From assembly GCF_026625885.1 (NCBI RefSeq), contig NZ_CP113068.1, forward strand, positions 3,162,001 through 3,226,000: a stretch of 64,000 nt of DNA. Reading direction: 5' to 3'. How positions within the stretch are numbered: position 1 is the stretch's first letter; every line of letters starts with the position of its first letter. The position numbers were made by a program, and so were the translations under genes. The stretch comes from Roseateles sp. SL47 (GTDB lineage Bacteria > Pseudomonadota > Gammaproteobacteria > Burkholderiales > Burkholderiaceae_C). Shown here one piece after another: positions 10,487 through 36,962 of the stretch. The notes under the pieces are model-generated. The model saw only the letters and a list, made by a program, of their open reading frames with translations, did no database searches and was not told the DNA's origin.

Positions 10487-12043
10487 ATGATCAGCGCGCA
10501 GCAACTGGAAGCCTTGGACCCGCAGACGCGGCAGGCCGTGCAGTCGCTGCTCGCCCAGGTCCAGCAGCGTGACCACGAGCTCGCCTTCAAGCAGGCGCTC
10601 ATCGACAAGCTCACGCACGAGATGGCGATCCTCAAGCGGATGAAGTTCGCCGCCACGAGCGAGCGCTTCGCCAGCACCCTCTCGCCCGAGCAGAGAAGCC
10701 TGCTGGAGGAGACGCTGGACACCGACATCCATGAGCTCGACGTCGAGCTGCAGCGTCATCGTAAGAAGGCCGACAAGAAGGACGAGGACGAGAAGAAGGC
10801 GCCCAAGCGCGCCCAGCTTCCCGCCCACCTGCCGCGCCGCGACGTGCCGCACGAGCCGGCGGATACGGCCTGTGGTTGCGGCCAGGCCATGCAGCGCATC
10901 GGCGAGGACGTGGCCGAGAAGCTGGACTACCAGCCCGGCGTGTTCACCGTTGAGCGCCACGTGCGTGGCAAGTGGGTCTGCAAGTGCTGCGAGCGCATCG
11001 TGCAGGCACCGGTGCCGGCCCACGTGATCGACAAGGGCATCCCGACCACCGGCCTGCTGGCCCACGTGCTGGTGGCCAAGTTCATGGACCACTTGCCCCT
11101 GTACCGGCAGGAAGCTGTGTTCGCGCGGGCCGGCCACGTGATCGCCCGCTCGACGCTGGCGGAGTGGGTGGGCGCCTGTGGCGCGCAGCTGCAGCCGCTG
11201 GTGCAGGCCCTGGCCGACGAACTGCGGCGCCACCTGGTGCTGCATGCGGACGAGACGCCGGTGGCCATGCTCAAGCCGGGCAACGGCAAGACTCACAAGG
11301 CCTACATCTGGTCGTACTGCACGCCGAGCACTAACCCCGTCAAGGCGGTGGTGTTCGAGTTCAGCGAGACCCGCAGCGGCGAGAACGTGCGCGACTTTCT
11401 GCAGCTTGAGACGCCCAACGCCTGGAAGGGCACGCTGGTCACCGATGGGTTCAGCGGCTACTCGGCCTGCGTCGACAAGGGCGTGACGTCGGCACAGTGC
11501 ATGGCGCACAGCCGGCGCAAGTTCCATGAGCTGTGGGCCAACCATGGCAGCAAGGTCGGCGAGCAAGCGCTGCGCTTCTACCAAGCCCTGTTCCGCATCG
11601 AGCGCCAGGCCGAGAGCCTCACCAGCGAGGAGCGGCAGAGGATCCGGCAGCGCAAGTCACGACGGATCCTCGCCGTGTTCCACCGATGGTTGCTCGCACA
11701 GCGGCAGCTGGTGCCGCCCGGCTCCGCGACCATCAAGGCCATCGACTACAGCCTGAAGCGCTGGAAGGAACTCACGCACTTCGTGGGCGACGGCGACGTG
11801 CCGATCTCCAACAATTGGGTCGAGAACCAGATCCGCCCGATCGCGATCGGCAGATCGAATTGGCTCTTCGCCGGCAGCCTGCGAGCGGGCAAGCGCGCGG
11901 CGGCCATCATGAGCCTGCTGCACTCGGCCCGCATCAACGGGCACGACCCGTACGCCTATTTCAAGGACGTGCTGGATCGCTTGCCGACGCACCCGGCAAG
12001 CCGGATCGACGAGCTGCTGCCGCACCGCTGGTCACCGAGCTGA
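10487..12043 (+). CDS. tnpC: IS66-family transposase TnpC
   Basis: The protein has 518 residues and appears full length. It starts with a leucine-rich coiled-coil region ([10 protein letters not shown].. to about 85) and an acidic/Lys-rich linker. A zinc-finger-like segment follows, with [14 protein letters not shown] and [12 protein letters not shown]. The DDE core contains [23 protein letters not shown] and the C-terminal Glu region [20 protein letters not shown]. The end [10 protein letters not shown] is the usual IS66 terminus. It lies 76 bases after tnpB in the same element and is the catalytic subunit. Confidence 0.92.
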
Positions 12044-13575: not shown

Positions 13576-14262
13576 CGTCACGCGGGCCGCCAGCGGTGCG
13601 GCAGCAGTTCTTCCAGGAGGTGGTTCGGGTGCGTGTGGATGCGCGCCAGCACGTCGCGCAGGTAGGCCCACGGATCCAGACCGTTGAGCTTGGCCGACTG
13701 CACCAGGCTCATCACCACGGCCGCGCGCTGGCCCGCCAACGCGCTGCCGGCGAACAGCCAGTTCTTCGCCCCGAGTTTCCAGGGCTTGATCTGCCGCTCG
13801 ATGAGGTTGTTGTGTGTGCCTTGCTAAGGCACGGTTGATCCGTCGGTGACGGGAGAGGTCCTTGGCCGAACCCGAAGTCCGACCCGGCGAACTCGCGCTC
13901 CAGCCGGAAGCACAGGGAGCGGTTCAGGAGGTAACGAATGGACTGAAGCACTGCCTGAAAACGCCTCGTTTGGAGGCAAGCAGGTCATGCGGGCCGCAAC
14001 GTGAGTGAACACTGAGCAGGCCTCGAAAATTCGTCGTGGATGCCGACTCGCCATAACAACGAGGAAGGCCGACGGCGGTGCCCAAGCGAGCGTGAAATGC
14101 AGGCACCGCGTCCACCGGGGTAGTGGTGGCAGCACGCATGACAACCGATCGACCGTGCAACAAGGGAAGTCCGTGGTGGTGCTCGGCTGGCTGCTGGGCA
14201 ACGACGATCTCGTGAGGGATGGAAGTCGGCCGTTGCGGATGGCGGATGGGGGTGTAGTAGTG

Positions 14263-15675: not shown

Positions 15676-15687
15676 TGCGTCGGAAGA

Positions 15688-15720
<33 letters not shown>

Positions 15721-16974
15721 GACGAGGGGGATGTGGAGACGGAGTTACGGTCGGGCTCATAGGGCACCGCCAACCGAAAGGGGCGGAAACAGCGATGCCT
15801 TGACCTACTGCCACCGCGCCACATCTCTACTCTACCGATGGCCACCGCGCCATCTTCGAGGTGGCGTGTGAGCGCCACCCAGTGCCCGAGCGTGTAGTCG
15901 ATCGCCTTGGCCGTGGCGCCGCCATCGGCAACGAGGCGCCGCTCCAGACTCAGCCAATGATGTAGCTCCTCCCACAGCGGCTTGGCCAGTCGTTGCCGCT
16001 GAGCTCTTCGTTGTTCGTCATCGAGGCCCTTGAGTTCACCCTCGACTTCGTAGATGCGAGCGAAGCGCCGCAGCGCATCCAGCCCGACGGGACTGGTGCC
16101 GACCTTGGTCAGTTCTTCGAAGTTGCGGCGTGCATGCGCCGCGCAGGCAGCGCTGATGCGACCGGGGTAACGCTGCGGGTCGACCACGGTGTCGTAGGCA
16201 CCGTAGCGGTCGGTGAGCAGTGTCCCGGTCCATCGTCGCAAGCCGAGCCTGTCGTCGCCGCCCAGGAATGCCACGGGGTACTGCGCCCCGCGGCCTCGGC
16301 AGAATTCGTAGACGACACCCGGCATCGCGTCGTGCCAACTTCGCGCGTAGGCCCACATGTAGGCCTTGCGGGTCTTGCCCGCTCCGGGGTCCAGCAGGGC
16401 CACCGACGTCTCGTCCGCATGCAGCACCGGGCAGTCCAGGACGAAGTGCTTGTGCAGCTCGTACAACGGTTCCAGCGCTGCGCCGACCTGGCCCGCGCCG
16501 GCCGCCAAGGTCGAGCGCGGGGTGTGCACGCGTGAACGGGCGTTGATGCTCTCCTGCCGGTAGTACGGCAGGTGGTCCACGAAGCGGCTGATGGCGGTGT
16601 GCGCGAGGAACCCGCTGGCGGCGATGCCGCCCTCGACGATCTCCGGCACGCTGGGCGCCTGCTTGAGCACCTGGCAGTGCCGGCATGCCCACTTGCCGTA
16701 GATGTGGCGATGCACGAAGAACTCCGCCGGCACGATGTCCAGCCGCTCGGTGACGTCTTCGCCGATGCGCTTCATGGCGCGTCCGCAGCCGGGCTCCTGG
16801 CAGTCGGTGCTGTCGGGTCAGCAACTTGAAAGACCGCCCCCGCTGTTTCGGCCGCCGCTGCAGCACGTCGCGCAGGTGGGCTGAAATACGCACAGAGGGG
16901 GCTTTCCGAATTTCGGTGTGCAAGGCCAGGTAAGCCTTCACTGAATTCGTGAAGTGCCCCCACCAGTTCTGCGA

Positions 16975-24796: not shown

Positions 24797-25879
24797 TTAT
24801 TCGGTCGAATTCAAAAGGGCTGCCTTGGCCCGCGTGACCTTGGCGAGGATGTTGGAAGCGCGAGCCGTCCAGATGAACGGTTTGGGATCGATGTTGTGAT
24901 GAGCAACATAGAGATCGATGGCCAGCTCGAGTTCGGCCACGCTGGTGAAGCTGTCACGTCGAATGCGCTTGTCGGTGATGTCGCGGAAGAAGCGCTCGAC
25001 CATGTTCAACCAGGAGGCGCTGGTGGGCGTGAAGTGCATGACAAACCGCGGATGTCGAGCCAGCCATCTCTGGACATCGGGATGGCTGTGAGTGGCGTAG
25101 TTATCCACGATCAGATGCAGACCCAAGTCCTTGGGCGTGCGGCGATCGATGTGCCGCAGGAATTTGAGCCACTCGCTGTGACGGTGTCGCGGCTGGCACA
25201 TCGAGATCACGCGGCCGTCCAAGGTGTTGAGCGCAGCGAACAGCGTCGTGGTGCCGTGGCGCTTGTAGTCGTGGGTGACAGTGCCGGCGCGCCCGCGCTT
25301 CATGGGCAGCCCCGGCTGCGTGCGGTTGAGCGCCTGGATCTGGCTCTTCTCGTCGCAACTCAGAACGAGGGCTTGCTCGGGAGGATTCAGATAGAGCCCG
25401 ACGACATCCAGCAGCTTGTCCTCAAAGCGCGGATCGCTTGACAGCTTGAAGGATCGACTCAGATGAGGCTTGAGCCCGTTGCTGTGCCAGACGCGGCGGA
25501 TCGTCGTGGCGCCGACGCCCAAATGGCTCGCCAGGGTACGAGTGCTCCAGTGTGTCGCGTCCACCGGCCTCTCATGCAGCGTGGCGTGCACGATGCGTGA
25601 TTCCACTTCCGCAGTGACTGTGGCCGGCCGTCCCGAGCGTGGTGCATCCTTGAGAAGCGCCGGGACGCCACCGTCGAGGAAGCGCTGGCGCCACAGCGCG
25701 ACCTGGCGCCGGTCCAACTCGACCTTGTCGGCAATGTCCTTGTTCTGGAGGCTTTGCGCTGCCAGCAGGATGATTTGCGCCCGCTGCTGAACCCGAGCTT
25801 CGACCCTGCGGCCCTTGGCCAGCGCGCGAAGCGCGCGCTCGGTGTCTTCGTCCAGTCCAATGGTCTGTGCAACTCGCAT
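24797..25879 (-). CDS. IS630-family transposase
   Basis: The protein has 360 residues. The N-terminal part is a homeodomain-like HTH pair (QSLQNKDIADKVELDRRQVA and ASHLGVGATTIRRVWHSNGL). The DDE domain has [28 protein letters not shown] and [18 protein letters not shown]. The start ATG 25879 is preceded by an AGGAGG ribosome-binding site seven bases away, and that site is itself duplicated. Full length and without frameshift, so it may supply transposase for the defective copies. Confidence 0.92.
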   Translation of the reverse strand: MRVAQTIGLDEDTERALRALAKGRRVEARVQQRAQIILLAAQSLQNKDIADKVELDRRQVALWRQRFLDGGVPALLKDAPRSGRPATVTAEVESRIVHATLHERPVDATHWSTRTLASHLGVGATTIRRVWHSNGLKPHLSRSFKLSSDPRFEDKLLDVVGLYLNPPEQALVLSCDEKSQIQALNRTQPGLPMKRGRAGTVTHDYKRHGTTTLFAALNTLDGRVISMCQPRHRHSEWLKFLRHIDRRTPKDLGLHLIVDNYATHSHPDVQRWLARHPRFVMHFTPTSASWLNMVERFFRDITDKRIRRDSFTSVAELELAIDLYVAHHNIDPKPFIWTARASNILAKVTRAKAALLNSTE

Positions 25880-26380: not shown

Positions 26381-26780
26381 TGAGTTTTGCCGTCCGCCTC
26401 CAGCTTCATTCGGCAAGCCCTTACTGCCCACGAAGAGTGATCGATCACACGTCACTGCTAAAGCGTTCTCCCGACAGTATCGCGAGACGCACTTCAATCG
26501 CTCAGGTGCGATTGCTTCATTACTCGTAATGAATTGGAAGTCGGGGCGGGTAGCTGCGAAGGGGCAGGGCCTTGACCTGCAGGTAGTACACGCTGCGCCG
26601 CGGCACGTGGAACGTTTTCCATCCCCTTGCGACCGTCTTCTACCCAGCTCTCAATCTCATGGCGTGTTCCTCTCAACGGCAACACCTGAGCAGGTTTTCA
26701 CTGGGTCAATACATAACCGCGGCCGGAGCGCAGCGGAAGGAACCAAATGCATGGCATGTTGCGTCCCGTTGACGGACGGG
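26381..26780. other. Intergenic stretch without a clear gene
   Basis: No start-bearing ORF here looks real. A minus-strand frame ending at 26520 (WKTVARGWKTFHVPRRSVYY..) has protein-like character but no start or known family. Bases 26700-26780 contain short inverted blocks (ttgcgtcccgttgacgg; ttccgctgcgctcc on the other strand) that could be a worn attC site behind the adjacent cassette gene; this is uncertain. Confidence 0.4.
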
Positions 26781-27269
26781 TCAGCGAGCGGCTTCGGTAA
26801 GCTGGATGACATTGCCGTCGCCCCAGCCGTCGTGAACCGCTAGCGTTGTGGGAAATGAGTATGTCCACCCGCCAGCCTTCCACCAGCATTCGGCCAGCCA
26901 CCCTTTGATAGTGTTGCCAGCCAAGAAATGCCCCGGAAATTCAACCTCATCATCCTCCAGCGAAACGAAATACCTCTCGTCGAATTCTGACAATCCAGAT
27001 AGCGGTAGTTGCAATGCGAGGGAACGGCCTGGGAATAGGGATTGGTCCGTTTGATCTACCTTGTTATTCTGGCCGCAATAGTAGATCCATACAGTCGGCG
27101 CACCACCATCTTCGTCTAGAAAGACCTCAACTTGCGCGTTCTTCACTTCACCATTGACGGCACGACCTAGCAGCGAGCGGAAGGTTTCGATGGCCGCAGA
27201 AGAAACTCGGTCGAGCTCTCGCCTGTAGCGAGATACAAACTGGGACTCAGAAAGGCCAAACGGAATCAT
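26781..27269 (-). CDS. Integron cassette gene, unknown protein
   Basis: The protein has 162 residues from ATG 27269, which lies a few bases after the attC core of the preceding cassette (gttagcgagcaaa, minus strand), the usual spacing for a cassette gene. The sequence is acidic, with AVNGEVKNAQVEVFLDEDGG, FPGHFLAGNTIKGWLAECWW and a Trp-rich end. There is no signal peptide or membrane span. Base composition is visibly less GC-rich than the flanking chromosome. I do not recognise the family. It resembles in style small proteins found in cassettes or as immunity proteins, but no function can be claimed. Confidence 0.65.
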   Translation of the reverse strand: MIPFGLSESQFVSRYRRELDRVSSAAIETFRSLLGRAVNGEVKNAQVEVFLDEDGGAPTVWIYYCGQNNKVDQTDQSLFPGRSLALQLPLSGLSEFDERYFVSLEDDEVEFPGHFLAGNTIKGWLAECWWKAGGWTYSFPTTLAVHDGWGDGNVIQLTEAAR

Positions 27270-27276
27270 TTTGCTC

Positions 27277-27344
27277 GCTAACGTTGAAATTGAGCCGTGA
27301 GCGCCGGCTTGGCGACGCCAGTCGGCTTGAGCGCCTGGTTAGGC
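27277..27344 (-). other. attC recombination site 1
   Basis: On the minus strand the site opens with GCCTAAC (R'' core) and closes with GTTAGC (R' core), 68 bp in all. Imperfect inner arms (CAAGCCGAC / CGGCTCAAT) are complementary. The stop codon of the RDD gene lies in the first core and the next gene starts just after the second core, exactly as in an integron cassette array. Confidence 0.75.
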
Positions 27345-27932
27345 ATTCTGGCTCGGAGGAGATGACTTGACTACGACGGTGCTGGCAATCATGTCGCCAA
27401 GCCGCATGCGTCTATTGCTGAGAAGGAAGACCGCATCGACTATGAAGAAGAAGTGCGTCAGGTTGCGCCAGAAGGATTGGAACCACGAGCATTTCTGCCC
27501 GGTCTCGACGCCAACGACCCGCAGATTCAGAACCTTCTTCCCGAAGCCTTGTCCAGTTGGTGCAGCACGGAACAGCATGTACAGCCACCAAGCAAGCACG
27601 ACAGCGAACTGATGTGCCTCTTCGGAAATCGATCGTAACGGGAAGAACAGGACGAAAGCCAAAATGCTGCAGCCGACAGTGTCGATCAGAAAGGCCACCA
27701 GTCGCGCGGAAGGCTCGCCAAGTAGCTTGTTGAGTTGACGTTCATGTGCATGCCGCTGTGGGACGCGCTCCTGAACCTTCTCGACAGCGGCTGGAGCCAC
27801 ACCGCGGGATTTCAGCACTTGAGCAAGGACGACCTGAGCCTCTTCGGTGAGACCCCGCGCAGACAGTTCTAGCAGTTCCTCGGTGTCTTGACGCTCGTAG
27901 TACTCACGCAAATGATTCATTTGTTCTGACAT
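27339..27932 (-). CDS. RDD-family membrane protein in an integron cassette
   Basis: The protein has 197 residues from ATG 27932; the frame is open further upstream, but that part belongs to an attC site. The N-terminal 80 residues are soluble and helical (MNHLREYYERQDTEELLEL). An RDD membrane domain follows with LVAFLIDTVGCSILAFVLFF, a second span VVLAWWLYMLFRAA, the conserved GQGFGKKVLNLRVV, and a final span before RMRLGDMIASTVVVK. RDD proteins are small membrane proteins of mostly unknown, partly transport-related role. Its stop TAA is part of attC site 1. Confidence 0.82.
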   Translation of the reverse strand: MSEQMNHLREYYERQDTEELLELSARGLTEEAQVVLAQVLKSRGVAPAAVEKVQERVPQRHAHERQLNKLLGEPSARLVAFLIDTVGCSILAFVLFFPLRSISEEAHQFAVVLAWWLYMLFRAAPTGQGFGKKVLNLRVVGVETGQKCSWFQSFWRNLTHFFFIVDAVFLLSNRRMRLGDMIASTVVVKSSPPSQNA

Positions 27933-27939
27933 GTCGAAT

Positions 27940-28050
27940 GCATAACGTTGAAGCTGAGGGCCTAGATTCAACTGGCCGCGCGGAGCTGAAAATATCCATG
28001 CAGCGTAGCGCGGCAAGCTGGCGTACGTCCATTCAAGCGACATGTTAGGG
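27940..28050 (-). other. attC recombination site 2
   Basis: On the minus strand it runs from CCCTAAC at 28050 to CGTTATGC at 27940. The inner arms ATGTCGCTTGAAT and CAGCTTCAAC share a complementary TTGAA core. It is 111 bp long, within the range of long attC sites. The RDD cassette starts immediately after it (TTATGC.. then ATG at 27932). The upstream cassette that should own this site is missing, because an IS5-type end begins at about 28049. Confidence 0.6.
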
Positions 28051-28195
28051 AAGGCCTGCACAAAGCACAGGCATCTGTGCCGGCCACGACCTGAAGTCGA
28101 ATATTGAAGACATGCGCGTCATCGAGGACTGGTTTTCCCGCATTTCGCTGCGCATTTGTCGCCTCCGCGGCGGATCTCGCGCTTTGCAGGCGCAC

Positions 28196-28800
28196 TCATG
28201 CCTGCACCCCGCCCAATTGGCGGCGCAGCATCCACAGGTTGGACAGCGCGAACAAGGTGTGCAACTGCGTCGTGTTCTTCGCCAGCCCACGGTAGCGCAC
28301 CTTCACATGGCCGAACTGGCGCTTGATCACCCGGAACGGGTTCTGCACCTTGGCCCGGATGCTGGCCTTGAGCCACTCCAGCTCATCGATCAGGCGATGG
28401 GACTCCAGGCTCTTGTCCAGTGCTCGGCGCTTTCCGGCTCGCATGGCGATGTTCCAACGGACATCCGGTTTCGCGTCGGCTCGCTTGTCCGCGCCCTGGT
28501 AGCCCGCATCACCGAAGTATTCGGTCTCTTCGCCGTGCAGCAGCGCATTGGCATCGGGCACATCATTGACGCTGCCCGTCGTGCCGCGCACCGTGTGCAC
28601 CAGGCCCGAGTCGGCGTCTACGCCGATGTGGGCCTTCATGCCGAAGTACCACTGCTCTCCATTCTTGCTCTGCTTCATCTCCGGGGCGTGCTCGCCCTGG
28701 GCGTTCTTGGTCGAACTCGGCGCGGCGATCAGCGCGGCGTCCACCACCGTGCCCGCACGCAGCATCAAACCCTCGCTGCGCAGCAAATCGTTCATTGTGG
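28196..28800 (-). pseudogene. IS5-family transposase remnant, N-truncated
   Basis: About 200 C-terminal residues remain: MNDLLRSEGLMLRAGTVVDA, SKNGEQWYFGMKAHIGVDAD, YFGDAGYQGADKR and AKVQNPFRVIKRQFGHVKVR. The DDE Asp and Glu regions are present but the N-terminal domain is lost at about 28800. The element's 3' end runs to about 28049, where ggaaggcctgc directly abuts the attC core ttag. The coding frame upstream of MNDLL does not match the family. It is of another IS5 subgroup than the element at 5.9 kb. Confidence 0.8.
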
Positions 28801-29107
28801 GGCACGACGCGGCGGCAGTGGTCGGCAACATGTCGACAGAAATGGCTTTTGAGGGGCAGATAAGTGTTTTTTCCGAAGCTGTAGAGCGGGGCATAACGCA
28901 GGCGGTGATCCCGAGAAACATGACTTTCGGCCTGTACCGACAGCGGGTACTGCTGCTACCTTCCGGGAAGTAACAACTGCGCCAAAGCGGTCACCCTTCG
29001 AGGGTCTGCCGTTCCTTCCCCATGCTTCGCACGTCACATTCGCAAGACGCTCGACTCTTCAGCCTCAGCACGGGCGGTTCGATCTACGTGAACTGAGTCC
29101 GCGCCGA
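28801..29107. other. Interval between IS5 remnant and T6SS cargo operon
   Basis: On the plus strand a frame ending at 28973 reads MAFEGQISVFSEAVERGITQ and closes VLLLPSGK; another segment of the same frame ends SLSTGGSIYVN at 29096. Neither has a complete domain I recognise. They may be the tails of genes that once preceded the DUF2169 gene and were removed with the IS5 event. Confidence 0.35.
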
Positions 29108-30232
29108 ATGCAGTTGCACATTGGCTCCAAGCACTTTAACGCCCAGGTGATCGTGGCTCTGGACGTGGCAGGCGCAGAGCACTTGGTCATCATGGCCAAG
29201 GCCAGTTGGCGCATCCCGGAGCCGGGTCAGCGCCCGCGCCCCTTGCTGCCACCGGCCTTCGTCCTCAGCGACGCGTATCGGGGCGAGCCCGGGCAAAGCG
29301 CCCTGCGCTACGGCGACGACCTGGCGCGGTTCAAGCCCCGCTGCGATGTGATCCTGGACGCTCACGCGCACAGCCCCGGCGGTGAGCCAGTGACCAGCCT
29401 CATCGCAGGCATCGAGGTGGATGGCTGGCGCAAGCATGTCCGTGTTCACGGGCCCCGGCAGTGGCGCAGGAAAGGGGGAGGTTGGGGCCTGACACCCGCA
29501 CAAAGCTTCTCCAGCATGCCACTGCACCACGGTCTGGCTCTGGGCGGTACCCGTGAGTACCAGCAACAGAGCCAGACCCTGACCGAAGCCCATCTGCACA
29601 ACCCCGTCGGCCAAGGCTGGGCGACGCCACACACGTTGGACCAGTTCGACGGACAAGCGGCTCCGCAGCTTGAGCATCCGGACCAGCCCATCCAGCGGCC
29701 CGATGCGGCACTGCTCCCCCACGCCCTCAGTCCCATCGGCCGGCACTGGATGCCTCGGCGCCAACTTTCCGGCACCTACGACGAGGCTTGGCAGCGCGAC
29801 GTGTTTCCGCTGCTGCCCCTGGACTTTGATGAGCAGTTCAACCAATGCGCGCCGCTGGATCAGCAGTTGCCGTACCTCAGGGGCGGCGAGTCGGTTCGGC
29901 TCATTCACCTGATAGCCGGCCGGCCTCACGTGAGCTTCACGTTGCCAAAGTTTCAGCTACCCGTGCGCATCCTGCGCACCGACTACACCCGAGAAACGCC
30001 TGACCCTGTCGTGGATACCTTGTTTTTTGAGCCTGACGAAGGGCGCTTCAGCGTCGTGTGGCGAACCAGCGTCCCCATTCGGCGGAGGCTCCAGGAATTC
30101 TCTGCAGTGGCTGTTGGTCCAGTGAATCAGGCATGGTGGGAGGCCAAGTCCCTCGGGCTGGATGAGGCCGGGTGTCCAAGCTGCCGGTCTGAGACGGTGC
30201 AGTCCCCGATGTCGTTGCAGGAGGCGACATGA
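29108..30232 (+). CDS. DUF2169 protein, T6SS effector adaptor
   Basis: The protein has 374 residues from ATG 29108. It opens with the family's beta-rich start (AQVIVALDVAGAEHLVIMAK) and contains RYGDDLARFKPRCDVILDAH and CAPLDQQLPYLRGGESVRLI; the C-terminal half has LFFEPDEGRFSVVWR. DUF2169 proteins accompany PAAR-like proteins and type VI effectors and are thought to help load or stabilise them. No signal peptide is present, which fits a cytoplasmic chaperone. It overlaps the next gene by ATGA and heads the operon. Confidence 0.85.
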   Translation: MQLHIGSKHFNAQVIVALDVAGAEHLVIMAKASWRIPEPGQRPRPLLPPAFVLSDAYRGEPGQSALRYGDDLARFKPRCDVILDAHAHSPGGEPVTSLIAGIEVDGWRKHVRVHGPRQWRRKGGGWGLTPAQSFSSMPLHHGLALGGTREYQQQSQTLTEAHLHNPVGQGWATPHTLDQFDGQAAPQLEHPDQPIQRPDAALLPHALSPIGRHWMPRRQLSGTYDEAWQRDVFPLLPLDFDEQFNQCAPLDQQLPYLRGGESVRLIHLIAGRPHVSFTLPKFQLPVRILRTDYTRETPDPVVDTLFFEPDEGRFSVVWRTSVPIRRRLQEFSAVAVGPVNQAWWEAKSLGLDEAGCPSCRSETVQSPMSLQEAT

Positions 30233-31482
30233 TCCTGTGGCGCCATCTGCTCCCACAGGATCAGCAAGCTGCGCCCGCGCAGTTCCCCACACCGTCCACA
30301 CCACAACCGTTTGCAGCAGTGGAGGTGATCGCGGCGGGTCTCTGCTGTGCGGTCGGGCATCAACTGGCAGCGGCCAGTTGTGCATTGCGCGCCAACATGG
30401 ATCACTTTCAGGCCGGCAAGTTCATGACGCCCAAAGGGGATCCACTGCTTCTGGCGCGTTTACCTGACGACAAGCTGTGGGGGCGGCCGCGAATTGTGAA
30501 GTGGCTGATCGAAGCGGCGCGGGACTGTCTTGGAATCACCGCGCATGACGCGTCTGAGGGGGCGGACGCGGTGGTGGCCGAGAAGCAAGGCCCATGGCAC
30601 TCTGATGACACGACTTGCGCGTTGTTGGTTCTTGCGCCACGCCCGGATCCTCACGCCCCACAGGCCGGTCCACCAGGTTCGGCCGAAGCGCAGGCCGCCA
30701 ACATGGCGTTGCAGGTGGCGCAGGCGCTCAACTTGAACCCGCATCCTGCCTCCGGTGTTCTATTCACAGGACGCGCGGGCTTGGCGCAGGCGCTCGAACT
30801 GGCGTCTTCGTGGCTGGCAGCCGGTGAGCTACGCGGCCAGCCTTTGAATCGTGTGCTGGTCCTCGCGGCCGACAGCCTGTTGGATGTCGACCTCATTGAC
30901 CGGTTTCTGGCGGAGCAGCGGCTACTTTGCCCAGGCAACAGTGATGGCTTCATTCCGGGCGAAGCGGCTGCGGCCCTGTTGCTGAGGGCTGCCCGTGTCC
31001 CACCCGCCATGGGTCACGCACAGCCTACCGACACGGATCAGCGGCGGCTACGCATCGTGGGAGTGGCAGAAGGCCAGGAGCCCGCTCGCTGGGGCGGAGG
31101 AATTCCCAACCGAAGCAAAGGCTTGACCGAGGCGGTGCGCAGTGCCTGCGAGCGTTCCGGCGGTGTGCTCCCTCAGGCGCTGAGTTTTCGGGTCAGCGAC
31201 CAGAATGGCGAGAGCTTCTATTCACGCGAGGCCGCAACCGCATTTGCGCGCCTGCGTGTAGGGGCATCTCCGCAGGCCTCGTTCCCTCACGTCACGCTGG
31301 CCGACAAGATCGGCGAGGTCGGCGTCGCCACGGGTGTGGCTGCACTGGCCTGGCTGAGTCATTTGTGGGAGCGACAGCAGCGTCTTCCCGGAGCCCGCCG
31401 GCTGGGCGAATGGGGCATGGGGGTCGTTCATCTGTCCCAAGACGACGGGCGGCGCGCCGCTGTGATCGTGGAACCGAGATAG
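30229..31482 (+). CDS. Ketosynthase/thiolase-fold protein of a T6SS cargo operon
   Basis: The protein has 417 residues. The start region AVEVIAAGLCCAVGHQLAAA and the C-terminal segment LADKIGEVGVATGVAALAWL have the shape of beta-ketoacyl synthase N- and C-lobes. At the usual nucleophile position the sequence VLVLAADSLLDVDL has no Cys, and no clear catalytic His pair is seen, so it is probably not an active condensing enzyme. Relatives occur between DUF2169 and DUF4150 genes in T6SS clusters, with unproven function. It is coupled to the DUF2169 gene by a four-base overlap and followed after three bases by the DUF4150 gene. Confidence 0.72.
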   Translation: MILWRHLLPQDQQAAPAQFPTPSTPQPFAAVEVIAAGLCCAVGHQLAAASCALRANMDHFQAGKFMTPKGDPLLLARLPDDKLWGRPRIVKWLIEAARDCLGITAHDASEGADAVVAEKQGPWHSDDTTCALLVLAPRPDPHAPQAGPPGSAEAQAANMALQVAQALNLNPHPASGVLFTGRAGLAQALELASSWLAAGELRGQPLNRVLVLAADSLLDVDLIDRFLAEQRLLCPGNSDGFIPGEAAAALLLRAARVPPAMGHAQPTDTDQRRLRIVGVAEGQEPARWGGGIPNRSKGLTEAVRSACERSGGVLPQALSFRVSDQNGESFYSREAATAFARLRVGASPQASFPHVTLADKIGEVGVATGVAALAWLSHLWERQQRLPGARRLGEWGMGVVHLSQDDGRRAAVIVEPR

Positions 31483-31485
31483 CAC

Positions 31486-31872
31486 ATGGAAACACACGTC
31501 TACGCCAACGGCGCCGAGATCTGTTCCAAGGCAGCGGACGGCAAAGCCATCTGTGGGCCCGACTCCTGCTGGAGTCCACCAGCACCAGCGGCCGGGCCTG
31601 TGGTGCTGCCGTATGTCAACACTGCCAAGGCTGCCGACCTGCGGGAGGGGAGCCAGACCGTTTTCATCTGCGGCACCGCCATGGCGCTGCGCGACCAGTC
31701 GTATCTGGCTAACAGCACGGGTAATGAGCCGGCGACGCGTAGTTTTCCCATGGGCGTGGCCAGCCACGTCATTCAAGGTAAAGCTTACTTTGTGGGCTGG
31801 TCGACGAACGTCAAGGTCGAAGGGCTGAACGTGGATCGACACGGGGACCCAACCACTCACAACCACGCATGA
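31486..31872 (+). CDS. PAAR-like DUF4150 protein (T6SS spike tip)
   Basis: The protein has 128 residues and is of the DUF4150 family, a PAAR relative that caps the VgrG spike. Typical strings are METHVYANGAEICSKAADGK, LPYVNTAKAADLREGSQTVF and MGVASHVIQGKAYFVGWS; Cys and His residues (CGPDSC, DRHGDPTTHNH) may bind metal. It is a stand-alone tip with no toxin domain fused, so the following gene is its likely cargo. The short C-terminal tail ends THNHA. Confidence 0.85.
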   Translation: METHVYANGAEICSKAADGKAICGPDSCWSPPAPAAGPVVLPYVNTAKAADLREGSQTVFICGTAMALRDQSYLANSTGNEPATRSFPMGVASHVIQGKAYFVGWSTNVKVEGLNVDRHGDPTTHNHA

Positions 31873-31914
31873 AAATGCCCAATCCCGCCTGAGTCTCCGA
31901 CCCTGTATTGCTCC

Positions 31915-33120
31915 ATGGCCACTACTCCCAATACCGGCACCAGCTACTACCTTGACACACCGGCCGTGCGCTCGGCGTGCAAGGATGACTTTGCAAAGAT
32001 CGACAAGGCTTGTGCCCCGGAGACCGAGCGATCCGACAAGAACAAGCATCCCGTGCTGCGCAAGATGCTCGGTGCCGATCGGGTCAAGAAGCTCGACGCC
32101 ATGGCTGACAAGATCAAGGGCAAACACGGCTTCAAGGGCAGCACGGACAACGCCTGGATGTCGCACTGCGACGGGCTGTGGATCAAGCCGGGGACGGACG
32201 CGGAAGAACTCAAGAACTTCAACGACCAGATTCAGCACTTGTCCGACGACCTCGGCGGCGCCATTCAGAGTCAGCTCAAGCCGCTGATGGACAAGGTGGG
32301 ACAGGAGATCAAGGAAAAAGCCATTGCCGAGGCCAAAGAGAAAGCCCTTAAGGCGGGTGGCAGGGCGGCGGCAAGGTGGGGTGTGGCTGCGGCAGGCGTT
32401 GCGGCTGGGGGTGTCGGTGGGGTTGTCACTGAAGCGGTAGCCACTGCTTGGAACATCTGCGACTGGGCGATGACCGGCTACGACGCGGTCAAGACTACCT
32501 CCGCAGCCTGGGGCGCGATCAGCGAAATGAAGACCCTGCTGGGCGTGGCTCAAACTGCGCAGAGCGAGCTGCAATCGCTGGCGGGCAACATGGCCAACAA
32601 GACGCCCACGGAGTTGATGGCCGATGGCATGGGGGTGCTCTCACGCCTGAACGCCTGTACCCGTGCACGACGCTGCCTGTTGGTGCCCTATGGCAAGACG
32701 GATACCAAAGACAGCCTGGGTGGCAAGGGATGCTGCCCCGGGCAGACGGGTCACCACGTGCTGCCGGATGAGATGACCAAGGACGATAACTGTCCAGGGT
32801 ACACCAAGGACGGTGCGCCTACGATCTGCGCCGAAGGAGCCAACAATAGCAATGGTACGCACGGTAGCATCCATCGTCACTTGGAAGTCAATATAAATAG
32901 GCATCGCACCAGCTTGTTTGGTGGTCCTACGCTGAGCTACGGCAAGGCCCGCGATATGGGCATCAAAAGCATCCATCAGACGTTTCCTGAATCGAAATGT
33001 GATGCCGCTTGCCTTCGTGCTCAGCTGGATGCGTACTACAAGGACAAATGCAAGTCGACGTTGCCTGCAGTGGCGGGAGTGCCGAGAGCGGGTGATCGCG
33101 CTGATTCGAGAGCACGATAG
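31915..33120 (+). CDS. Probable T6SS effector with a GHH-type nuclease C-terminus
   Basis: The protein has 401 residues. The N-half is soluble and Lys/Asp-rich (DKNKHPVLRKMLGADRVKKL). A helical stretch at about 120-150 is Lys/Ala-rich, then comes a glycine-rich hydrophobic segment (RWGVAAAGVAAGGVGGVV). The C-terminal third carries GQTGHHVLPDEMTKDDNC with GHH near residue 279, and later THGSIHRHLEVNINRH, which resembles the Tox-GHH2/HNH-like nuclease toxins. Activity on DNA is inferred from that family. It lies after the PAAR-like gene and is followed, 7 bases later, by a probable immunity gene. Confidence 0.75.
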   Translation: MATTPNTGTSYYLDTPAVRSACKDDFAKIDKACAPETERSDKNKHPVLRKMLGADRVKKLDAMADKIKGKHGFKGSTDNAWMSHCDGLWIKPGTDAEELKNFNDQIQHLSDDLGGAIQSQLKPLMDKVGQEIKEKAIAEAKEKALKAGGRAAARWGVAAAGVAAGGVGGVVTEAVATAWNICDWAMTGYDAVKTTSAAWGAISEMKTLLGVAQTAQSELQSLAGNMANKTPTELMADGMGVLSRLNACTRARRCLLVPYGKTDTKDSLGGKGCCPGQTGHHVLPDEMTKDDNCPGYTKDGAPTICAEGANNSNGTHGSIHRHLEVNINRHRTSLFGGPTLSYGKARDMGIKSIHQTFPESKCDAACLRAQLDAYYKDKCKSTLPAVAGVPRAGDRADSRAR

Positions 33121-35491: not shown

Positions 35492-36962
35492 TCTTACTGT
35501 GTGACAAGAATAGCGACGTCCGGCCGCAGCACGTGCATGGGCCCAATCGAAGGTTCAACTCATAGCTCAGCAGGTGCCGCAAGGACGTGATTGACGTCGA
35601 CACGTGGCGCTGAGCGCGCTGGGCTACTGCCCCTCGGGACGTAATCTTTGGGAAGGTCAGGCAACGCGCGGATTGCGAAGTTTTTTTTGCCGCCGATTGG
35701 CTTCTCGGCAGTCAGTCGTTCGGCCATCAGAAACCCATATGCCGCGATGCACAGGGCGGCGTGATGGTGAAAGCCGCGCCAGCCGCGACCTTCGTAGTGA
35801 TCAAGACCGAAGTCCTGCTTCAGGTCTTGATAGTCGCGTTCAATGCGCCAGCGCTGGTGGGCGGCGCTGACAAGCTCGTTGAGCGACGTCGTTGCTGGCA
35901 GCGTAGACAGGAAATACTTGGTCGGCTCGGCTTGCCCATGCGGCCACTCGATCAGCAACCACTGTTGCGCACGAAGCCGTGCTTTGCCGGAGTTCCCGCC
36001 AGCGTGACGCACGCGCACCGCCGCGAAGCGATCGCTGAGCGTGTGATTCGTGCCCTCGCGCCAGCTGATCGTTTGAAAGGCCGAGGCGGGCAGAGACATC
36101 GCCAACGATTTGACGCTCAGGGGCTGCAACTCTGGCGTGCGTCGAGGCATCACAGGCGGGCGGCCGTTACCGCTGTAGGGTGCGGGCGGCAACGGCTCAA
36201 CGCCGGGTGGCCACACCACGACTGCGGAGGTCACGCCGACTACGTACTCAAGCCCCATCTCGGTCAACGCTCGGCGGAATTCGGTGTCCACGCCATATCC
36301 GGCATCGGCCAGAACGCAGTGCTTCGGCGCGCCCTCAGCAAGCAAGCGCCGCAACTGTTGCAGCGCGATCTCGGTCTTGGTTGCGAAACGCATGGCCTCA
36401 GGAACCCCTGCCTTGCGCCGGCGCTCATCGTCGGCAATCCAGTCCTTGGGCAAATAGAGCTGCCATGCCACCGGCAGGCTGCCCTGACTGCACGACAGCG
36501 AGACGCTGACCGCCACTTGGCAGTTGTCTTGCTTGCCCAGGACCCCGCAATACTGGCGAGCGACGCCTACCGAATGGCGCCCCTTCTTCGGAAATCCTGT
36601 GTCGTCGATGATCCACCAGCCACCTTCGCTGAAGTCCATCTTGGGCACGACCCACTGGCAGACGCGACGAAGCATTTGCTCGTCGGACCACTCAGCCTTC
36701 GCCACGAAGTGATGCAGCGACTGATGTCGCGCACTGGCATGAACCGGGTCCACACGAGCGGCCATGGGCTCAACGCTCTTGCGCGTCAGCGGCAACATCA
36801 GCCCCGTGCAATAGCCACGAAGCCCCTCGTGGCGGTCGGTGTGTCCCAGGCCGGAAGCCAAATGCTCCAGGTATTCCTCAAAGCGGTCTGCGGTGTTCAT
36901 CGATCCTCAACCAAAGAACCAAGAAGTCCTCATAATGCCTTGATTTTATTGACACAGTAAGA
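35492..36962 (-). mobile_element. IS701-family insertion sequence
   Basis: The tips tcttactgtgt (35492) and acacagtaaga (ending 36962) are inverted repeats. TTAA lies directly outside on both sides (35488-35491 and 36963-36966), fitting the YTAR target duplication of the IS701 family. One intact transposase is inside. The element sits at the very end of the T6SS cargo operon. Confidence 0.88.
35560..36900 (-). CDS. IS701-family transposase
   Basis: The protein has 446 residues. It shows the family's FSEGGWWIIDDTGFPKKG with the first catalytic Asp, HCVLADAGYGVDTEF with the second, and WRIERDYQDLKQDFGLDHYE with the Glu; HHHAALCIAAYGFLMAERL is the usual C-terminal helix. Length and motifs are those of an intact enzyme. 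It is transcribed against the neighbouring T6SS operon. Confidence 0.9.
   Translation of the reverse strand: MNTADRFEEYLEHLASGLGHTDRHEGLRGYCTGLMLPLTRKSVEPMAARVDPVHASARHQSLHHFVAKAEWSDEQMLRRVCQWVVPKMDFSEGGWWIIDDTGFPKKGRHSVGVARQYCGVLGKQDNCQVAVSVSLSCSQGSLPVAWQLYLPKDWIADDERRRKAGVPEAMRFATKTEIALQQLRRLLAEGAPKHCVLADAGYGVDTEFRRALTEMGLEYVVGVTSAVVVWPPGVEPLPPAPYSGNGRPPVMPRRTPELQPLSVKSLAMSLPASAFQTISWREGTNHTLSDRFAAVRVRHAGGNSGKARLRAQQWLLIEWPHGQAEPTKYFLSTLPATTSLNELVSAAHQRWRIERDYQDLKQDFGLDHYEGRGWRGFHHHAALCIAAYGFLMAERLTAEKPIGGKKNFAIRALPDLPKDYVPRGSSPARSAPRVDVNHVLAAPAEL

Follow-up and report, generated by a model that had tools for sequence, protein, structure and literature searches.

Clusters of attC sites lacking an integron-integrase (CALINs) are recorded in RefSeq, and IntegronFinder 2.0 calls them at a threshold of two or more attC sites (PMC9024848). 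In Xanthomonas, about half of the genomes are described as holding CALINs away from the integron platform (ilvD), and intI is often inactivated (PMC12444791). Models of attC sites have been made for 11 taxa, none of those listed in that work being a Betaproteobacterial order (PMC8352920).

In this study, a 64-kb window (the whole stretch of DNA analysed, i.e., G000:C1:3162001-3226000 of a source genome of 6,388,479 bases in one contig) was examined. Relatives of this genome, Ideonella and Aquabacterium among them, suggest that it is Betaproteobacterial. We consider it very probable (about 0.93) that two cassettes and the attC end of a third one, arranged in tandem on the minus strand of this window, represent a CALIN, which was joined by an integrase and later stranded by IS elements. 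The layout of the locus fits the published descriptions and it is an ordinary relic, for which no new mechanism is called for; in comparison with the published CALINs, it has only two whole cassette genes, ends cut by IS elements, and a truncated third attC site.

Organization of the cassette array

Read on the minus strand from 28100 to 26700, the locus comprises an IS5-family remnant, a possible gene tail, attC-2, an RDD gene, attC-1, a 162-codon gene, a truncated attC-3, and a putative IS end, beyond which, at the attC-3 side of the array, stands an IS630 transposase gene (25879-24797). The features distinguished are as follows (window coordinates):

27276-27344, minus strand: attC-1, 69 bp, recombination site of the RDD cassette (model R1, 38.0 bits, E 1e-6)
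27940-28050, minus strand: attC-2, 111 bp, belonging to the interrupted upstream cassette (model R1, 31.3 bits, E 3.9e-5)
26713-26793, minus strand: attC-3, truncated, R'' apparently decayed, cut within L', R' missing (similarity to the fosI and dfrA12 attC sites)
27339-27932, minus strand: cassette gene 1, RDD-family membrane protein, 197 aa from MSEQMNHL (PF06271, E 1e-15)
26781-27269, minus strand: cassette gene 2, 162 aa, weakly DUF6389-like (PF19926, E 0.0017, under Pfam's cut-off)
28045-28165, minus strand: possible 3' tail of an interrupted third cassette gene (open frame, TAA stop inside the attC-2 R'' box)
28166-28921, minus strand: IS5-family remnant (transposase frame 28196-28921, NF033581, E 1.3e-53, profile positions 102-285 of 285)
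26656-26713, minus strand: putative terminal piece of the IS element cutting attC-3 (86% over 59 nt to a Comamonas plasmid sequence beside intI1)
24797-25879, minus strand: IS630-family transposase near the array (NF033545, E 1.9e-76)
24707-46911, strand not applicable: variable region enclosing the array (blastn of the window against L077 of G015 and L078 of G009)

Both whole attC sites lie on the minus strand, 595 bp apart, with the RDD gene in between, at the positions given in the original prediction; the length of 111 bp proposed for attC-2 was also right, while attC-1, counted with 7-nt R boxes, has 69 bp and not 68. Start codons were found a few bases past each R' box (ATG at 27269 for gene 2 and at 27932 for the RDD gene), and the TAA stop codon of the RDD gene sits inside the attC-1 R'' box GCCTAAC, both as had been noticed before. 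The lower GC content pointed out for the genes was also observed, i.e., 0.56 and 0.547 for the cassettes versus 0.636 for the window, in which only 2.1% and 0.6%, respectively, of 600-bp stretches are as GC-poor. The attC-gene-attC order supports the integron cassette layout proposed originally, to which the truncated attC-3 (26713-26793) and the IS remnants at both array ends are now added.

The IS5-family transposase frame (28196-28921) is devoid of the N-terminal third of profile NF033581, and the DNA similarity to ISPre1-like elements begins at 28166. IS end repeats were sought at the array and none were resolved. The promoter scan of the 26400-29200 region gave no promoter on the cassette strand, the sole promoter-like site being located on the plus strand. 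The cassette genes, with neither attI nor a Pc promoter beside them, are probably silent or read from outside.

Recognition of the attC sites

Since scanning of the window at Rfam gathering scores gave no attC match (two group II introns alone were matched), a covariance model, R1, was built from 29 attC seeds of 57-90 bp, with no window site included. The seeds were taken from arrays that relatives carry close to intI-like genes, from the integron of the source genome itself, and from two class 1 integron plasmids. Within the 64-kb window (E up to 10, default filters), attC-1 and attC-2 were the only R1 matches, and thus the covariance search put forward as a check of the original prediction was positive for both sites. 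Applied to 299 kb of 16 other loci, the model gave matches above 21 bits exclusively in L010, L045, and L049, all of which carry or adjoin intI (six of these matches are seeds).

The R and L helices covary in the 29 seeds, with 90.4% of the cells paired (24-43% in slid versions) and a covariation score of 0.431 (0.127 when shuffled and at most 0.104 when slid); since the seeds were chosen by a scan demanding pairing, this covariation, like their good folding, is partly built in. The number of seed pairs changed on both sides was nine, a value reached by 81 of 500 shuffles, which makes this one of the five measures unexceptional. Furthermore, seeds L010:11041 and L049:1123 resemble attC-1 and surfaced partly through that resemblance, so the attC-1 test is not fully independent. 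In the case of attC-2, the last 19 nt are identical to one seed site (E 0.003), and BLAST at E 1e-3 gave no match besides its own copies. The window sites are set apart by the covariance model only, and not by pattern scans: a simple R''/R' pattern scan found more than 100 pairs in the window, and the window sites were absent among the matches listed at the cut-off of the first R+L scan. The truncated attC-3 is missed by R1.

The truncated third attC site was recognised in the search of 72,556 plasmid records with the 26400-28110 region used as a query, in which 1,781 records matched at 80-90% identity. Among the matches listed (20, spread down the ranking), 18 were on dfrA12, one was on fosI and one beside intI1, the latter falling on a different part of the query from the dfrA12/fosI matches. 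The attC-3 site shows 81.7% identity over 82 nt to the fosI attC and 84.8% over 66 nt to the dfrA12 attC. The attC type, 85% and 82% identical to that of the class 1 dfrA12 and fosI cassettes (NZ_CP030132 and NZ_KT070138), is the only thing in common with them, as neither gene of the window was identified as a resistance gene with the families searched.

The attC resemblance, running from 26793 to 26713, overlaps the 3' end of the 162-codon gene and breaks off within L', at a sequence that begins with TGTATTGACCC (the junction is ambiguous by a few nt). From TGTATTGACCC, 86% identity over 59 nt was found to a stretch beside intI1 in a Comamonas plasmid. On the basis of this similarity, we read the sequence cutting attC-3 as a putative IS end, which is presumably IS3-like. 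Another candidate for the third site, ACGCAAC..GTTATGT (26711-26764), was rejected, because the dfrA12/fosI alignment shows that its GTTA is the L' box, R' having apparently been lost to the IS end.

Folding of the attC sites

Folding of the bottom strand, another check put forward earlier, lent no support: in free folding of three stretches, on either strand, z-scores ranged from -1.10 to 0.15 and the canonical attC hairpin was not favoured. When the R core was forced, the bottom-strand pfold of attC-1 was 0.015, below all 29 seeds (0.022-0.97, median 0.66), that of attC-2 was 0.26, above 7 of the 29, and the arm pairing of the two sites (1.5 and 2.2) was under that of every seed (3.1-18.3), in a comparison favouring the seeds, which were themselves picked for pairing. 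We take this poor folding as a sign of decay, and not as a refutation. The R1 scores of the window sites, lower than those of most sites in the arrays of the family, also suggest decay, and both sites are probably decaying.

The integron of the source genome

The PF00589 search of the source genome gave eight matches, none of them inside the window, in line with the absence of an integrase noticed originally; the match nearest to the array is 58 kb away, at 3248162, within a 423-aa frame. IntI-like pieces were present only at 738.1-738.7 and 743.5-744.1 kb. The suggested search for intI elsewhere in the genome revealed, in this way, two broken copies at 738-744 kb, within the sole integron platform found (G000:C1:738069-746534; L010 3066-11534). 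In copy 1, the gene is split over two frames, which separates the N-terminal SAM-like domain from the catalytic domain, and copy 2 matches as three pieces, two of which contain an in-frame stop. The copies show 96% identity over 1,092 aligned positions and both end at attI-like CACGTT. Past approximately 100 extra bases in copy 1, they agree at 115 of 116 positions, and the identity ends at CTACAACACGTT, which we take as the attI crossover, with different cassettes beyond it in each copy. It seems probable that the integrase of this genome can no longer move cassettes.

The cassettes of this integron (738-747 kb) carry DUF1877, DUF2199, and unknown genes. Its likeness to the window array consists in one attC sharing 82% identity with attC-1 along 68 nt, and it differs by the two broken intI genes, the attI-like boundaries, and the other cassettes.

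Across the whole genome, R1 (E up to 10) recognised nine places. Six of these fall within 739.8-746.5 kb, and four of the six are seeds; the others are the two window sites and a single one at 1505839-1505895. Weaker sites may be missed, as 150 of 5,122 first-look candidates were scored. According to this map, the window array lies 2.4 Mb from the only platform found. Thus, of the two origins proposed previously, the cassette group without an integrase stands, and the "cut-off end" of a chromosomal integron is not literally right. The locus is neither a complete integron (intI and attI beside the array), as there is no integrase-family match in the window, nor a mobile (class 1-5) integron, as it is chromosomal and has no intI in the window. 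When a CALIN is understood as at least two attC sites that share their orientation, lie up to about 4 kb apart with genes between them, and have no integrase nearby, the number of sites, their orientation and spacing, and the absence of an integrase are all as expected, the sites being called by R1 and by similarity.

The lone attC-like site at 1505839-1505895 (L101 9839-9895; 33.7 bits) folds poorly (pfold 0.0002). It is located directly behind a 152-codon frame without a Pfam match, far from both the integron and the window array.

Distribution of the attC type among relatives

Besides resembling a site in the genome's own integron (82% over 68 nt), attC-1 is 87% identical over 67 nt to a site near intI in G028. 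With attC-1 as a query, 35 of 399 genomes of the family, the source genome among them, gave a match at E 0.001 or better. Matches of at least 60 nt were present in at least 19 of the 398 other family genomes, which is a lower bound because two candidates were scored per genome and the known G028 site was missed. R1 matches at E 0.01 or better were held by 21 of the 24 non-own loci fetched, and two or more by 18. Altogether, the 24 loci gave 73 R1 matches (62 above 38.0 bits, 69 above 31.3 bits, best 71), and this clustering at attC-1-like loci indicates that the 69-bp type belongs to the cassette arrays of the family. Dense attC arrays were seen in G026 (L084; 23 sites by pattern scan in 15.0 kb) and G057 (L091; 31 sites by pattern scan in 14.3 kb).

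Within the genus, attC sites at E 0.01 or better were found in 6 of 16 genomes, own included (150 candidates scored each), and genus members carry attC on several contigs. In G009, G011, and G014, which have attC, the best IntI match (E 3e-19 to 5e-19) spans about 67 C-terminal residues, true IntI relatives matching over 200 residues; as these assemblies consist of about 40, 260, and 40 contigs, respectively, the absence of a full IntI is not proven. The single locus analysed here is ordinary and adds to the examples of cassettes that have survived the loss of their integrase; in this family, the 69-bp attC type is found in numerous arrays. The sampled genus, with a broken integrase, stranded arrays, and, in some members, attC sites without a full IntI match, could be used to test post-integrase dispersal and decay of cassettes.

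The cassette genes and their relatives

For the RDD protein, 17 other proteins covering 87-99% of its length were found, one of them from Ideonella sp. MAG2. Among genomes of the class, 49 of 369 gave a match (own included); in the others, the best E was 2.1e-9 and the similarity mostly concerned the RDD domain. The gene 2 protein has 88 relatives besides itself among 5.8 billion proteins searched, many of them on contigs of 1-3 kb, and the named sources include Vreelandella, Microbulbifer, Aquabacterium, Pokkaliibacter, and Pseudomonas. Its distribution is patchy, with two positive genomes among 199 relatives and one among 369 of the class (own included in both), and no match at E 1e-5 was found for it in the 72,556 plasmid records. 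Neither window gene is a resistance gene by the families searched. In the defence library, gene 2 had no match and the RDD gene had one weak match (E 0.0011).

It had also been suggested that the same cassettes should be looked for in other integrons. No close copy of either window cassette was present in the fetched loci, and a distant RDD cassette was found in G018, a member of the same family as the source genome. There (L082), a 123-codon RDD gene (11369-11740, minus strand) is located between R1 sites 11776-11860 and 11266-11352, in an array leading away from intI. The array resembles that of the window in having an RDD-family gene between attC sites and differs by the presence of intI and by the shorter RDD protein (123 aa), distantly related to that of the window (30% identity over 130 aa). 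Around the homologues of gene 2 in G114, Stenotrophomonas, and Cellulomonas no R1 match reached E 1, and gene 2 was thus not encountered as a cassette in the other loci examined. The literature search on RDD gene cassettes in integrons gave, judged by title, no paper about them, and that on DUF6389 gave none.

Chromosomal setting and origin of the array

About 22 kb around the array (24707-46911) are absent from two close relatives, G015 and G009, in which the left flank (up to 24.7 kb) and the right flank (from 46.9 kb on) are joined via 1.2 and 1.0 kb, respectively. In a third relative, G003, the left flank alone falls inside the 20 kb fetched. The 22-kb region contains the array, transposase genes, and a group of DUF2169, PAAR-like, and Tox-GHH2 genes.

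In the proposed scenario, an integron integrase would once have joined the cassettes in tandem by attC recombination. The array would later have been stranded by IS elements, one of the IS5 family interrupting the 5' cassette and the end of another truncating the last attC. Of this, the attC sites, the layout of the cassettes, and the IS edges are observed directly; in addition, the window shows no IntI-like gene, and the two intI copies 2.4 Mb away are broken. The array may have arrived as a fragment of a chromosomal array, may have been carried in with the 22-kb region, or may have been inserted by IntI at a secondary (attG) site.

The possibility that the inverted repeats flank two ordinary chromosomal genes by chance would agree with the poor free folding, yet it is extremely improbable given that the model, at E up to 10, picks out these two sites alone in the 64 kb, with cassette spacing, and that the third site was recognised by its similarity to sites of known cassettes. 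A different question is whether the cassettes are a relic of the genome's own integron or came from another lineage within horizontally acquired DNA. The latter is conceivable, although on the unlikely side: two relatives lack the 24.7-46.9 kb region, the cassettes are low in GC, attC-3 resembles sites of mobile resistance cassettes, and the own integron stretch fetched holds no relative of either gene, but the attC-1 type is shared with one own integron site and many arrays of the family, the sites look decayed and not fresh, and the 22 kb may be several events.

Cassette insertion at secondary chromosomal sites has reportedly been described by Loot et al. in 2024. Experiments on attG are also mentioned in the Xanthomonas study (PMC12444791). 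Direct insertion of the cassettes by the former integrase at such a site, with the IS elements coming later, is in agreement with this known type of event, with the lone attC behind a gene at 1505839-1505895, and with attC sites occurring on several contigs of genus members. We nevertheless find it doubtful, as both array ends, where the junction would show, are cut by IS remnants, and as an attC precedes the first whole gene, so that one single-cassette insertion would not give the array. Still more speculative, and rather improbable, is an extended version, in which the former integrase of this genus scattered cassettes over the chromosome at secondary sites before its loss, and the array and the lone attC at 1505.8 kb would be attG fossils and not fragments of one array. 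The reading as a CALIN, joined by an integrase and later stranded by IS elements, is the one that we prefer.

Several other elements were recognised in the window. Close to the array, at 29108-33120, there are DUF2169, Tox-PAAR-like, and Tox-GHH2 genes, which we take to be a type VI secretion effector group, and the variable region contains another transposase gene at 35560-36900 (DDE_5, E 1.5e-93). The group II intron family matches are located on the plus strand, at 13869-14004 and 15686-15814.
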